Of a stretch of DNA of 64,000 bases, positions 9,291 to 23,329 are shown one piece after another (the stretch's first letter is position 1; each line of letters starts with the position of its first letter). The stretch covers positions 434,001 through 498,000 of the forward strand of contig JAGWMJ010000001.1 in NCBI GenBank assembly GCA_028871815.1, read 5' to 3'. This DNA comes from Armatimonadota bacterium. GTDB taxonomy: Bacteria > Armatimonadota > Chthonomonadetes > Chthonomonadales > Chthonomonadaceae. Under the pieces are notes generated by a model that ran no database searches, was not told where the DNA came from, and worked only from the letters and a program-made list of their open reading frames with translations. The translations under genes were made by a program, and so were the position numbers.

Positions 9291-10652
9291 TCAGGCCGCT
9301 TCCACTCTCATCCGGCTCATCAAATCCGGAACGCGCGACTCGGCATCCAGATTGAGACAGCGGTCGATCACCTCGGCAGCCCGGTCGGTGCCGAGCCGGG
9401 GTTCGGCCATCGTGCGGAATTTGGCCTCCACTTCCGCGTCGCTCATCTTGTTGCCCGCATGCCCCTTCGGGAACGTGACCTCGTGCGTTAGAACCGTGCC
9501 GCCGCGCAGGCGGATAATCAGCCGGTTGGGAATGCCTTCCGGATAGCGCGCATCCAGGTCTTCGCTGACCCGCACATCAATCTTTTGTACGAGCGCCAGC
9601 AGCAGTTCGTTATGCAGGTGCGCGTCGTCGAATGACGCTTGCGTAACCGCGCCATCCATCAGCGCGGCAGCCGTGCACCACGGGAGGCTGTGATCGGCCG
9701 TTTCGCGGGTGGTGGGCCGCCACTTTTCCGGCTCGCCGCCAATTATCTCGACCGCAGCGCGGAACGACTCGATGGTGATCGATTCGATATCGGCAACATC
9801 GGCAATTTGAGTCCGGAGCTTGAGGGCGGCATCGATGGCGCTCTGCGAATGGTATTCGGCCGGGAAGAGCTTGATATAGGTTCTATCTATCATGAACCCG
9901 TCGCCTGCCGGTTCCGCGATCTCGAAGGGGCCCGATACCTGGTGAAAAAAGCCCATTTCGCCTTCAAATACTTCGGATGGTCCCGTCATTCCCAACGCTG
10001 CCAGGCGAGCGGCAAACAGCGCGTTACGGCTGGCATTGGCAAAGGCGCATCCCTTCCAGTGCGAGAGCATTCCGACCCGCGTTTGGCGCATGGCATTGTT
10101 GGGCACACCCGCCAGCCCCTGCGCATGTGTCATCTGCTCGGCGGTAAGGCCCAGGAGCTTGCAGGCTGCGAGCGTGGCGCTGAACGAACCGTACGTGACG
10201 TGATCCCACCCGCGCACGCGGATGCTGCAGGCGTCGCAAAGGCGGCACTGAACCTCGTACGCCAGCACAATGGCGGTTATAAGATCCTCGCCGGATGCCC
10301 GGGCGATTTCGGCCGCAGCAAGCGCTGCGGCGATGTTGTCGCTGGGATGCGCCGGCTCTTTTGAGAGGTAGGTGTCGTTGTAATCCAGATATCGGAACAT
10401 AACGCCGTTTGCGAAAGCCGCATCCTCGGGAGACGAGCCATGGGTGGTGCCGATAACGGCTGCCGGCTGCGTGGAACTAACGGTGAGCGCCAATTTGCGG
10501 GCGATTTGCGCCGGCGCAGCATCCCACGCGCCCATCGCGCAGCCGAGAGAATCGAGCAGGCGACGGCGCGCCTCATGGCGCGTGGCAAGCGGAATATCCT
10601 CATAACGGAGGCGACTGGCAAAAGCGCTCAGCCGTTCGGCAAGCAGTGTCAT
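9291..10652 (-). CDS. prpD: MmgE/PrpD family 2-methylcitrate dehydratase
   Basis: 453 residues from the ATG at 10652 (start of MTLLAERLSAF), the expected length of the MmgE/PrpD family. The frame stays open far upstream, but that part is antisense-of-frame to the acyl-CoA dehydrogenase and is not coding. Family features include an early RRLLDSLGCAMGAWD segment, AYEVQCRLCDAC and GAVTQASFDD. It dehydrates 2-methylcitrate to 2-methylaconitate. It lies 16 bp after the acyl-CoA dehydrogenase stop and 1 bp before prpB. No aconitase for the rehydration step is in the window. Confidence 0.87.
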   Translation of the reverse strand: MTLLAERLSAFASRLRYEDIPLATRHEARRRLLDSLGCAMGAWDAAPAQIARKLALTVSSTQPAAVIGTTHGSSPEDAAFANGVMFRYLDYNDTYLSKEPAHPSDNIAAALAAAEIARASGEDLITAIVLAYEVQCRLCDACSIRVRGWDHVTYGSFSATLAACKLLGLTAEQMTHAQGLAGVPNNAMRQTRVGMLSHWKGCAFANASRNALFAARLAALGMTGPSEVFEGEMGFFHQVSGPFEIAEPAGDGFMIDRTYIKLFPAEYHSQSAIDAALKLRTQIADVADIESITIESFRAAVEIIGGEPEKWRPTTRETADHSLPWCTAAALMDGAVTQASFDDAHLHNELLLALVQKIDVRVSEDLDARYPEGIPNRLIIRLRGGTVLTHEVTFPKGHAGNKMSDAEVEAKFRTMAEPRLGTDRAAEVIDRCLNLDAESRVPDLMSRMRVEAA

Positions 10653-10668
10653 CTGTTGGCGGATCCCT

Positions 10669-12453
10669 CTATGCTCCCCATGGAAACCCCTCACTTTGCA
10701 GCACCAACGCCGCCACCTTTCGGCGGAGCGCCACGGTGTTTGCCGTGGACGGTCGCAGCAGCCGGCGCACCACCGCGTAGTGTGTGGCCAACGCATCGCC
10801 CTGCGCGCATGCGACGAGCACGGTGCGCGCAAGGTGCGCCGCGCGGTCGGCCGCGTCCGATGCCAGTGTTTGCAGCGCCGCGAGGGCACACTCTGCGCGG
10901 TCACCAGGCGCCGATTCCTGCAGCATGGAAACCCGAATCGCCGAGCTTTCCAGGGCAAGGAGGTCGGCGGCCATGTCGGCGATCGCCGCGGCAACTTCCT
11001 GCTGCTCGGCCAGCCCTTCGCCCAGCGCCTCCCATGCCTGCCCGGCGACATACAGCAGCACATTGCGCATCTCGCCAACCAGGGCCCGCGCGGCGCCGAG
11101 CGGATCCGTTGATTCCAGCGTTTCCGGCGGCGCCAACACCGTATCGCGAAGCCGATGCGCTGCCGATTCCAGGTCCAGCCGGCCGGCCTTTGCCCGCCGC
11201 AGGGCCTGATCCAGCACGGTGAGGCGATTGATCTCGTTGGTGCCCTCAAAGATGCGGTTGATGCGCGCGTCGCGGTAAGCTCGCGCCATCGGAAACTCTT
11301 CGGTATAACCGTAGCCGCCGTGAATCTGCAGCGCCTCATCCACCACGTAGTCCAGCATCTCGGAGCCATAGAACTTGATGATTGCGCACTCGATGCTGTA
11401 CTCTTCGGCCGCGGCTCGGTAGCCCTCGAGCGCCGCGGGCGAGGCGTGATCGATCCGGCCAAAGATGTCGTCCCAGTAACCGGCCACGCGGTAGACCATG
11501 CTTTCCGCTGCGAAGATGCGGGTCGCCATTTCGCCCAGCTTGGCCTGGATGAGGCCGAAGTTGGCGATTGCCTGACCGAACTGGGAGCGCTGAAGCGCAT
11601 ATTTCGCAGCGGCGGCCAGCGCCTCCTTGGAGGCTCCAAGCGCGCCGGCGCCTATTGCATACCGTCCCAGGTTGAGTGGGTAGAGCGCGGCCCGGTGGCC
11701 TTTGCCGATTTCGCCGAGCACGTTTTCTACCGGGACCTCGGCATTCTCAAGAACCACACGCCGGGTGGAGGACCCCTTCAGACCCAGCTTTAGCTCCTCG
11801 CGCCCGAGCGAGACGCCCGGCGCGGAGGTTTCGACCAGAAACGCCGTCATCTTCTCACCATCTACCTTGGCGAACACCGTGAGCAAGTCGGCGAAGCCGG
11901 CGTTGGTGGTCCACATCTTGGTGCCGTTCAGCAGGTAGCACCCGCGCGGTTCATCCAGCGTGGCGGTCGTTTTGGCGGCCAGCGCGTCGGAACCGGAGTT
12001 CGCCTCACTGAGCGCAAAGGCGCTCAGTCGTTCGCCAGAGGCCATGGTAGGAAGGTACTTCTGCTTCTGCGCAGGAGTACCGAAGAAGAGGAGGGGAAGC
12101 GTGCCGATGCCGATGTGGGCGCCAACCGAGATGGCGAAAGAGGCGTTCGGCGCGGCCTTTTCGGTGATGAGCGTGACTGCCGACTTGTTGAGGCCGAGGC
12201 CGCCGTAGCACTCCGGAACGCCAATGGCCAGCAGGCCCAGGTCGCCCGCACCCTGAACCAGCCTGCGCATGAGGCCCTCTTGCTGGTGCTCGATCTCGTC
12301 GAGGCGCGGCATCACTTCGCGACGGACGTAATCGGCCATGGTGCGCGCCATCTGTCGCGTTTCGGCGCTAAGTTGTTCGGGTATCAGGATGCTGTTTGGG
12401 CCGGCGGCATCAATCAGAAATGCACCGCCGGCAGGCACAGGCGACTCTGCCAT
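10669..12453 (-). CDS. fadE: Acyl-CoA dehydrogenase (FadE-like, about 590 aa)
   Basis: 594 residues from the ATG at 12453, preceded by GGGAG; an upstream extension of the frame has no start signal and non-coding composition. The core FAD-dependent acyl-CoA dehydrogenase fold is seen in FALSEANSGSD, TKMWTTNAGFADLLTVFAK and IHGGYGYTEEFPMARAYRD; the probable catalytic glutamate is in FEGTNEINR. A C-terminal extension of about 180 residues resembles very-long-chain enzymes and Bacillus FadE, which has almost the same length. It oxidises acyl-CoA to trans-2-enoyl-CoA. Being first in an operon with methylcitrate genes suggests odd- or branched-chain substrates that yield propionyl-CoA. Confidence 0.88.
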   Translation of the reverse strand: MAESPVPAGGAFLIDAAGPNSILIPEQLSAETRQMARTMADYVRREVMPRLDEIEHQQEGLMRRLVQGAGDLGLLAIGVPECYGGLGLNKSAVTLITEKAAPNASFAISVGAHIGIGTLPLLFFGTPAQKQKYLPTMASGERLSAFALSEANSGSDALAAKTTATLDEPRGCYLLNGTKMWTTNAGFADLLTVFAKVDGEKMTAFLVETSAPGVSLGREELKLGLKGSSTRRVVLENAEVPVENVLGEIGKGHRAALYPLNLGRYAIGAGALGASKEALAAAAKYALQRSQFGQAIANFGLIQAKLGEMATRIFAAESMVYRVAGYWDDIFGRIDHASPAALEGYRAAAEEYSIECAIIKFYGSEMLDYVVDEALQIHGGYGYTEEFPMARAYRDARINRIFEGTNEINRLTVLDQALRRAKAGRLDLESAAHRLRDTVLAPPETLESTDPLGAARALVGEMRNVLLYVAGQAWEALGEGLAEQQEVAAAIADMAADLLALESSAIRVSMLQESAPGDRAECALAALQTLASDAADRAAHLARTVLVACAQGDALATHYAVVRRLLRPSTANTVALRRKVAALVLQSEGFPWGA

Positions 12454-12911
12454 GTGGTCTCCCTTTAGGCCGCCGCCCCGGCCAGTCAAATCGCGCAGCA
12501 TCGCGCAGGCGCAAGCGGAGGTTTGCGTAACGGCGGCGCGCCGTGGCGCCACGTATGAGTATACCGCGCGAGGGAGGGTGCGCGAAAGCGTCTCGCCCGT
12601 CCAGGTCCGGCTCGCAGGCCGGAGCGCAGGGAGTGCCAGGCACGGCGGACCGCGCGGATGGAAGGCGCCATGAGCGGGTCTGATTTCACCATGACCGTGG
12701 CTGCCGGAAAGGGGATGGCACACCAGCAGCGACGGCTGGGGATCGATGACCGGAAGCGTCGAGCAGGACGGCGCGTCCGTGCGGCTTAGCGGCCGCACTT
12801 CGGCGGGATCTGCCCGGTGATGGCCGGGGTTCCGAACCGGCTCAACCCGCAACCGTCGCCTATTTCGAGGGGAGCCGCAAACCACGGCGCCGTTCGGCAT
12901 GAGGCCGCTGC
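12454..12911. other. Gene-free spacer (458 bp)
   Basis: No convincing coding frame on either strand. A TATACT at 12558-12563 (minus strand), about 105 bases before the acyl-CoA dehydrogenase ATG, is the only -10-like element, and its -35 is weak. The segment is very GC-rich. Confidence 0.4.
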
Positions 12912-21386: not shown

Positions 21387-22238
21387 TCACGGCGAGCCCG
21401 CGCGCAAAACACAACGGAAGCCGAGGTCGTCGCTGATGTACGCCGGGAGGCTGTAGTACCGGTACGACGAGCGAAAGTTCAACGGATCGTTGTAGCCCCA
21501 TGGTCCGCCGCGCACAACCCGAGACTGTCCCGGCGCAAGGTCCACGGGGTCCGGCTGCTCGCCGGCGCGACCGCTCCAGAAAGCTTTGTGGTACCAGTCC
21601 CGGCACCAGTCCTTCACGTTCCCGGCCATGTCGCTGCAGCCGTAGGGGCTCATACCGTAGTGGCCCACCGCCGTCGTGCCGCCTGCGTCGCCAAGCTTGG
21701 ACTTGCTGCACCAGAGTTTGGAGGTGTCAAAGTGGCTGCCCCACGGGTATTTCCGCCTGTCCGTGCCACGCGCGGCCTTCTCCCACTGCGCCTCCGTCGG
21801 CAGCGCGCAGCCTGCCCACCGCGCGTACGCTGCAGCGTCGGCCCACGTCACGTTGACAACCGGGCGATCGCCCTTGCTCCAGGCCGGGTCGAATTCAGGC
21901 GCGTACGGCAGCGACCGACCCGTCGCCCGGCAGAACCTGCGGTACTCCGTCACCGTCACATCGTTTCGATACATCCAGAAACCGCTCAGCCTCACCGTAT
22001 GCGGTGGGTTGTCACCCTGATCGCTGTCACCCATCTGGAAGGGACCCGGCGGTATCCAGACCATCTCCGCGCCGTCTTTCAGATTGGTCCGGTGGCGCCT
22101 CCCGGAGGGTGGATGAACAACCGCCCGGGGATGAGACAACGCGCCCTGCGCCAGAACCGGTCCGCCCCATATCCCAGGGATGCAGACAAGCAGCAGGAGC
22201 ACAGCGATCGCCAGTCCACCTGCCTTTTTTGGCAACAT
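21387..22238 (-). CDS. Secreted FGE-sulfatase (C-type-lectin-fold) protein, copy 1
   Basis: 283 residues from the ATG at 22238, behind GAGGAGAT. Signal peptide in residues 1-32 (GLAIAVLLLLVCIPGIWGG). The SUMF1/FGE-sulfatase domain follows, with MVWIPPGPFQMGDSD, YRNDVTVTEYRRFC, LPTEAQWEKAARG, GYNDP and GFRCVLRAG near the end. The reactive cysteine pair of true formylglycine-generating enzymes is not visible, so it is more likely a binding/C-type-lectin-fold member. It is about 90% identical to the next gene except for an 81-bp block at 21423-21503. Confidence 0.85.
   Translation of the reverse strand: MLPKKAGGLAIAVLLLLVCIPGIWGGPVLAQGALSHPRAVVHPPSGRRHRTNLKDGAEMVWIPPGPFQMGDSDQGDNPPHTVRLSGFWMYRNDVTVTEYRRFCRATGRSLPYAPEFDPAWSKGDRPVVNVTWADAAAYARWAGCALPTEAQWEKAARGTDRRKYPWGSHFDTSKLWCSKSKLGDAGGTTAVGHYGMSPYGCSDMAGNVKDWCRDWYHKAFWSGRAGEQPDPVDLAPGQSRVVRGGPWGYNDPLNFRSSYRYYSLPAYISDDLGFRCVLRAGSP
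21423..21503 (-). other. Hypervariable block of FGE copy 1
   Basis: The 27 codons between RVVRGG and GFRC differ from the paralogue (22338-22418) at 36 of 81 bases without any gap, while the 90 bases before differ at 8 and the 33 after at 2. Differences are at codon positions 1, 2 and 3 in numbers 16, 12 and 8. Eleven variable codon pairs keep a constant third-position C, for example AAC/TAC, TAC/GAC, CTC/GAC and GGC/TAC. Confidence 0.7.
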
Positions 22239-22301
22239 GCAAACCATCTCCTCACAAAACCTCGGCCGGCGGCGGGAAGTGAAACGAGTCAAAGTGCAGG
22301 G

Positions 22302-23153
22302 TCACGGCGAGCCCGCGCGCAGAGCACAACGGAAGCCGTAGTCGATGTACTTGAGCGCCGAGTCATCGATCCACCGGTCCGAAGTGCGGAAGAACATAGG
22401 CACGTAGTTGTACCACGATCCACCGCGCACAACCCGGGACGCCCCCGGCGCAAGGTCCACGGGATCCGGCTGTTCGCCGGCGCGACCGCTCCAGAAGGCT
22501 TTGTGGTACCAGTCCCGACACCAGTCCCACACGTTCCCGGCCATGTCGCTGCAGCCGTAGGGGCTCATACCGTAGTGGCCCACCGCCGCCGTGCCGCCTG
22601 CGTCGCCAAGCTTGGACTTGCTGCACCAGAGTTTGGAGGTGTCAAAGTGGCTGCCCCACGGGTATTTCCGCCTGTCCGTGCCCCGCGCGGCCTTCTCCCA
22701 CTGCGCCTCCGTCGGCAGCGTGCAGCCTGCCCACTGCGCGTACGCTGCAGCGTCGGCCCACGTGACGTCGACGATCGGGTGATCGCCCCGGCTCCAGGTC
22801 GGGTCGAAGTCCGGCGCGGGCGGCATCGGCCGGCCCGTAGCATCGCAGAACCTGCGGTACTCCGTCACCGTCACATCGTTTCGATACATCCAGAAACCGC
22901 TCAGCCTCACCGTATGCGGTGGGTTGTCATCCTGATCGCTGTCACCCATCTGAAACGGACCGGGCGGTATCCAGACCATCTCCGCGCCGTCTTTCGGATT
23001 GGTCCGGCGGCGCCTCCCGGACGGTGGATGGACAACCGTATGGGGATGAGACAACGCGCCCTGTGCCTGAACCGGCCCGCCCCATATCCCGGGGATGTAG
23101 ACGAGCAGCAGGAGCATACCGATCGCCAGTCCGCCTGCCTTTTTTGGCAACAT
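22302..23153 (-). CDS. Secreted FGE-sulfatase (C-type-lectin-fold) protein, copy 2
   Basis: 283 residues from the ATG at 23153, directly behind a full AGGAGG; the frame stays open upstream over the hldD 3' end but that part is not coding. Same signal peptide and domain order as copy 1 (MVWIPPGPFQMGDSDQDD, LPTEAQWEKAARG, SDMAGNVWDWCRDWYHKAF). Its C-terminal variable block (22338-22418) differs sharply from copy 1 while the rest is nearly identical. It lies 63 bp upstream of copy 1 in the same orientation; the better binding site suggests it is translated first and strongly. Confidence 0.85.
   Translation of the reverse strand: MLPKKAGGLAIGMLLLLVYIPGIWGGPVQAQGALSHPHTVVHPPSGRRRRTNPKDGAEMVWIPPGPFQMGDSDQDDNPPHTVRLSGFWMYRNDVTVTEYRRFCDATGRPMPPAPDFDPTWSRGDHPIVDVTWADAAAYAQWAGCTLPTEAQWEKAARGTDRRKYPWGSHFDTSKLWCSKSKLGDAGGTAAVGHYGMSPYGCSDMAGNVWDWCRDWYHKAFWSGRAGEQPDPVDLAPGASRVVRGGSWYNYVPMFFRTSDRWIDDSALKYIDYGFRCALRAGSP
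22338..22418 (-). other. Hypervariable block of FGE copy 2
   Basis: Counterpart of 21423-21503. Shared codons inside the block are mainly TGG, CGC, TCG, CGG and GCG, which form a constant scaffold between variable codons. The block ends at GGC TTC CGT, the conserved last strand of the fold. Confidence 0.7.
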
Positions 23154-23329
23154 ACCAACCTCCTTCGCGGGAAAGTGTCGCGGGGGACTGTCCACCACGT
23201 GCTCGAACGGCCACACCTGCAAAGTTGTGCCTGGTTCCAGGTGTGAATGCACTTCACCGTTTCGCCTCTGAACCGTTCGCGCCGGCAGCCGCAACGCCAT
23301 AGCCGACCCGGCCACTACCGTGGCCCCAA

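Follow-up and report, generated by a model that had tools for sequence, protein, structure and literature searches.

A hypervariable block in eight FGE-fold genes of an Armatimonadota bacterium: probable variable regions of an orphaned diversity-generating retroelement target family

Two tandem genes and their variable region

Genes A and B lie in tandem on the minus strand of the window, i.e., the whole stretch of 64,000 nucleotides that was analysed; the better boundaries for them are 21387–22238 and 22302–23153. Their features are as follows.

21387–22238, minus strand: gene A, a 283-aa FGE-sulfatase-fold protein, start MLPKK; PF03781, E = 4e-53
22302–23153, minus strand: gene B, tandem paralogue of gene A, 84% amino acid identity; PF03781, E = 1.5e-55
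21423–21503, minus strand: hypervariable 27-codon block (VR-like) of gene A; 36/81 differences from B; adenine-column signature
22338–22418, minus strand: hypervariable 27-codon block (VR-like) of gene B; 36/81 differences from A; adenine-column signature
21504–21527, minus strand: 5' portion of gene A's variable region; two codons vary and conserved RVVRGG follows
22419–22442, minus strand: 5' portion of gene B's variable region; same layout as gene A
21390–21422, minus strand: GC-rich conserved 3' tail of gene A (GFRC.LRAGSP), near-invariant in eight copies
22305–22337, minus strand: GC-rich conserved 3' tail of gene B, near-invariant in eight copies

In the 5' part of the variable region, alignment codons 237 and 238 vary, and the remainder is conserved and has no invariant A. 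The GC-rich 3' tail is where a putative IMH-like site would sit. The product of gene A is probably secreted, its N-terminus looking by eye like a signal peptide. Beside the two genes, the window encodes an epimerase, a ComEC-like protein, an M48 peptidase and proteins without hits, and none of these neighbours gave a hint of a protease or conflict-system partner. A 552-aa open frame antisense to both genes (21588–23246, plus strand) is probably a by-product of high-GC coding sequence.

The first-pass annotation had counted 36 differences among the 81 bases of the block, without gaps and with 28 of them at codon positions 1 and 2. A recount gave the same figures, the differences being distributed 16/12/8 over the three codon positions. 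Outside a 25-codon core, 58 of 774 bases differ (7.5%), and dN and dS between the two genes were 0.81 and 0.37 in the block versus 0.05 and 0.14 outside it, so that the divergence of the block is far beyond chance. The recount also agreed that third-position C is retained in many of the A/B pairs of variable codons, although this is weak evidence alone, because third positions diverge at the background rate.

The C-terminal loop of FGE is a binding surface. An AlphaFold model (mean pLDDT 83) matched FGE structures and TvpA, a protein whose DGR (diversity-generating retroelement) is present in Treponema denticola. TvpA (PDB 2y3c) is likewise an FGE/C-type-lectin DGR variable protein, found by phmmer (5.6e-14) and by Foldseek (2e-13), but its identity to the window proteins is about 23%. 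The two catalytic cysteines of FGE (C336 and C341 of the human enzyme, numbered from the titles of PDB mutants) are missing in A and B, which have no cysteine within the aligned segment from RGG.W to GFR, and ligand binding is therefore likelier than catalysis. From the C-type-lectin/FGE fold, the signal-peptide-like start and the missing catalytic cysteines, the proteins are predicted to bind ligands.

An eight-copy family with variability at adenine columns

The pair of tandem genes that the first-pass annotation had described is real, but it belongs to a larger family. A whole-genome search found six further same-family copies (G000:C2:341046-346730), giving eight copies in two clusters. 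The C2 copies are close (71–80% identical); three are fused in a 1025-aa ORF with PEGA domains, one is single, and two are fused. The gene immediately ahead of this cluster encodes a caspase-domain (Peptidase_C14) protein whose N-terminus resembles a signal peptide and which contains SGHG and DACR motifs. With this caspase-like gene standing just before the larger cluster, the proteins are likely to be used for recognition that is coupled to a proteolytic response. In the coordinates of locus L033 the caspase-domain gene (PF00656; 8647–9732, plus strand) overlaps the PEGA-FGE tandem ORF just downstream (9696–12773), and the two are likely to form a protease-sensor pair. A ninth, more distant FGE copy (L035:6460-7653, minus strand; G000:C1:676480) is 61% identical and has a shorter variable region (GGAFGNSMPMYFRASYRNYGPAFYYGNYGFR). 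The closest matches to the genome among contigs of other genomes are Armatimonadota/Chthonomonas MAGs, so that the organism is probably an Armatimonadota bacterium. Outside this genome the closest homologues of the family reach about 60% identity, none of the relatives searched has the same FGE subfamily plus an intact DGR, and a search of viral contigs for close relatives gave a single match, at 35%.

Across the eight copies, codon positions 1 and 2 differed by 0.49 per site in codons 247–271 versus 0.08 in the flanks, and position 3 by 0.20 versus 0.16; most variable codons have the form NNC. In the 35-codon variable region all 45 A-containing columns of the alignment were variable, which is weak evidence alone, because columns with about three bases often include A by chance. 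A occupies none of this region's 44 invariant columns but 72 of 413 outside it (P = 7e-4), a test inflated by the A-poor codons that the conserved residues of the FGE scaffold (R, G, W, F, A) happen to have. The pairwise difference was 0.65 at A-containing columns of the block versus 0.19 in the flanks, 0.10 versus 0.08 at A-free columns, and 0.139 versus 0.138 at third positions without A. The most variable columns use the bases in the order A>G~T>C, which resembles the order A>T>G>C seen at template adenines in the real DGRs of relatives. Some codons (TGG, AAG, ATG and GAG in place of NNC) require third-base changes beyond A-mutagenesis alone.

The copies are mutually random, with 23–47% identity at the 43 columns showing at least three bases. 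The variable codons were unlinked (P = 0.84), whereas linkage in the flanks was strong, exceeding all 500 shuffles. Block and flank distances were uncorrelated (Mantel P = 0.72), and the block had no tree signal. Because stepwise selection or cassette exchange would leave either linkage or tree structure, the lack of both argues for adenine-directed, site-independent mutagenesis. The adenine rule was drawn from eight sequences without a template of their own, and weight was placed on the invariant-A, linkage and tree tests and on the template repeats of relatives described below.

One isolated codon a long way upstream, codon 74 of the alignment (22014–22016 and 22929–22931 in the window), is also hypervariable, with 7 amino acids among the 8 copies and T as the third base in 7/8; it lies beyond any plausible variable region.

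Templates and reverse transcriptases in the genome and its relatives

The first-pass annotation, which had seen neither a reverse transcriptase (RT) nor a template repeat (TR) in the window, had proposed a search of the whole genome for them; as far as the assembly goes (3.68 Mb, 22 contigs, 98.3% complete), we found neither. There was no match to PF00078 (RVT_1) or to a DGR-RT profile built from three sequences. BLAST with the variable region (VR) returned the eight copies and the one distant copy only, and a search for an RGGSWNNN-type TR pattern, CGNGGNGGNNSNTGGAAYAAYAA, matched only gene B's own VR, with 2 mismatches. Identical RT and TR searches succeeded in relatives. A single sub-threshold PF05635 (Avd) match, S23-like by eye and in a genome without any RT match, was set aside; Avd is not universal among DGRs.

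TR/VR pairs were sought by script in the genomes of relatives. Complete FGE-DGRs with RT and TR were found at G013:C398 (same family), G022:C13 and G061:C106, and at the first of these 19 of the 20 TR/VR mismatches are at TR adenines. At G003:C311 the VR of an FGE gene is followed after about 290 bp by a TR, and the two sequences differ at 0/88 non-A and 19/35 A positions. At the orthologous place in G012 (C196) the TR is almost the same, whereas the VR is a different one and carries a frameshift relative to the TR (L225, minus strand, 9821–9930), the G003 orthologue being open. The same ORF, gamma-glutamyltransferase-like by eye, lies downstream at both loci (L224 in G003, L225 in G012). In G003 (97% complete) and G012 (93%), both of a neighbouring genus, no RT was detected although the TR and the adjacent FGE target remain. 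Taken together, the two contigs cover about 7 kb downstream of the TR in G003 and about 9 kb upstream of it in G012 and show no RT there, these negatives being limited by fragmented assemblies (about 700 contigs).

Variability in the window family maps to the adenines of the G003 TR (P = 5.5e-10; positions 1 and 2 alone, P = 2.6e-7; ungapped mapping). This region of the FGE fold is not variable by default, as shown by the conserved pairs L107/L108 and L160/L167; the former, ordinary FGE orthologues, had a variable-region difference of 0.00/0.04 despite 0.40 at silent sites. In most pairs of recently rewritten targets, block third positions differed by 0.00–0.12 versus 0.18–0.37 in the flanks; in the pair L194/L199 the values were 0.24 versus 0.31.

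Origin and present state of the repertoire

The sequence comparisons support DGR-type adenine mutagenesis as the process that produced the block. Adenines, i.e., the A columns of the alignment and the TR adenines of relatives, can account for the variable sites. As in DGR targets, the variable region lies at the 3' end of a C-type-lectin/FGE-fold gene, and the variation falls, by proxy of the A-column test and the relatives' TR adenines, at adenines and mostly at codon positions 1 and 2; the non-A columns, however, are not identical between targets, as recent homing would make them. The proposal of the first-pass annotation that the pair is a DGR target thus holds for its origin, given the adenine columns, conserved non-A columns, AAC-type codons, FGE fold and relatives' templates. 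It does not hold for a complete present-day DGR, there being no RT or TR in the 98.3%-complete assembly and no homogenisation of silent sites.

We think it probable that the block represents the variable region in a family of DGR targets, now an orphaned ("fossil") repertoire of eight fixed binding specificities, because RT and TR are missing from the assembly and silent sites have diverged equally in block and flanks. The best reading is that the family is inactive now, or is diversified only by machinery outside the assembly. An RT would have copied a template rich in AAC codons, misreading its adenines, and the cDNA would have replaced the 3' end of the FGE-fold genes, randomising about 20 surface codons and leaving the scaffold intact. 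This would have been repeated, also after the A/B duplication, as the saturated A/B difference suggests; RT and template would later have gone from the assembled chromosome, the copies drifting at the background rate. The signature, the eight copies, the lack of RT and TR in the assembly and the intact homologous DGRs of relatives are directly shown; for the rest of this explanation we infer the loss of the machinery, the timing and the ligand-binding role.

By flank divergence A and B are sister copies (16/180 third positions differ), and their blocks are as different as those of any pair of copies. Either homing followed the A/B duplication or the flanks were later homogenised. Third positions of the A/B block differ at 10/35 (P = 0.003) and, at columns never showing A, at 6/30 versus 11/155 outside (P = 0.04), a mild excess that is unexplained by one recent homing round from one template.

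The main rival to an orphaned repertoire is external machinery, i.e., an RT and TR that fall in a gap of the assembly or belong to a phage or plasmid left unbinned, acting in trans on the eight copies as live remote targets. Targets diversified in trans and loci that lack an RT of their own are on record (PMC10907252), the assembly, 98.3% complete, is in 22 contigs, and the G003 target (genus g4), with mismatches confined to A positions and no RT found, indicates that recent diversification in an RT-less assembly occurs in the family. Live remote targets would, however, need both RT and TR to be missing from the assembly, and at its non-A columns the block has diverged as much as the flanks have, which is not so in most recently rewritten targets; we regard the idea as rather unlikely. 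It is also unlikely, in our estimate, that in this Armatimonadota family the target repertoires persist and diversify without a chromosomal RT, with TR and many targets staying in the genome as in G003 and G012 and the RT of a mobile or foreign element acting in trans, in which case the template of the window genome would also be external. The absence of RT in G003 and G012 nevertheless makes loss or trans supply in the family worth pursuing.

Without any retroelement, a ligand-binding loop could have come under strong diversifying selection of the ordinary kind, its codons changing one at a time through fixed point mutations after the duplication. This would fit a dN/dS of about 3 in the block, the binding-surface role of the FGE loop and the few single codons elsewhere that are also very variable. 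Nevertheless, we consider it very unlikely: the A/B block is saturated against 9% third-position change outside, it has neither phylogenetic signal nor linkage, and the excess variability is limited to A-containing columns and the relatives' template adenines. Exchange of the block between paralogues or strains, through cassette shuffling or gene conversion and with the flanks homogenised, would fit the slight surplus of old silent A/B block differences (P = 0.04, non-A columns), but shared runs were not above chance (codon-run P = 0.84, longest base run P = 0.22), making it extremely improbable.

Remote and remnant DGR targets are already known (PMC7517822, PMC10907252); what is new here is a set of eight targets with RT and TR lacking genome-wide, an unusually clean case. 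The DGRs of Thiohalocapsa PB-PSB1 illustrate FGE/C-type-lectin targets in multicellular bacteria, with trans action discussed, and conflict systems join DGR-diversified CLec sensors to caspase- or trypsin-like peptidases (PMC10907252). The window family is like those of PB-PSB1 in having an FGE-type CLec variable region at the C-terminus, several targets in one genome, tandem CLec domains within a single protein, caspase/trypsin partners and loci without RT or TR, but its assembly has no RT, no TR and no near-perfect non-A match to any template. In cyanobacteria, remote variable proteins such as all3226 keep remnant TR-VR homology without a nearby RT, and orthocaspase domains occur in variable proteins (PMC7517822). 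Dispersed CLec paralogues, seemingly removed DGR components and an orthocaspase association are common to both, whereas the window family has eight copies in two clusters, a genome-wide absence and apparently secreted proteins. By analogy, the C2 cluster resembles the DGR-CLec/peptidase conflict systems of these reports (PMC10907252, PMC7517822). The family offers a case for asking whether a cell that has fixed its repertoire goes on to lose the mutator, and whether genomes lacking an RT make use of one from elsewhere.

The complete DGRs in G013, G022 and G061 share with the window family a 35-36-codon RV.RGGSW...GFR variable region in an FGE fold and an AAC-rich template, the G061 TR being shorter. 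Unlike the window family they have RT and TR, with non-A VR-TR mismatches at 3/300 in the compared pairs. The G022 DGR (L098), with RT and TR, adjoins ORFs that by eye are vWA-, PP2C- and kinase-FGE-like, resembling a TerY-P type triad, and the complete G013 DGR (L100) has as neighbours an ORF that by eye is MoxR/AAA-like and an FGE target of 913 aa, an arrangement that resembles ternary conflict systems.
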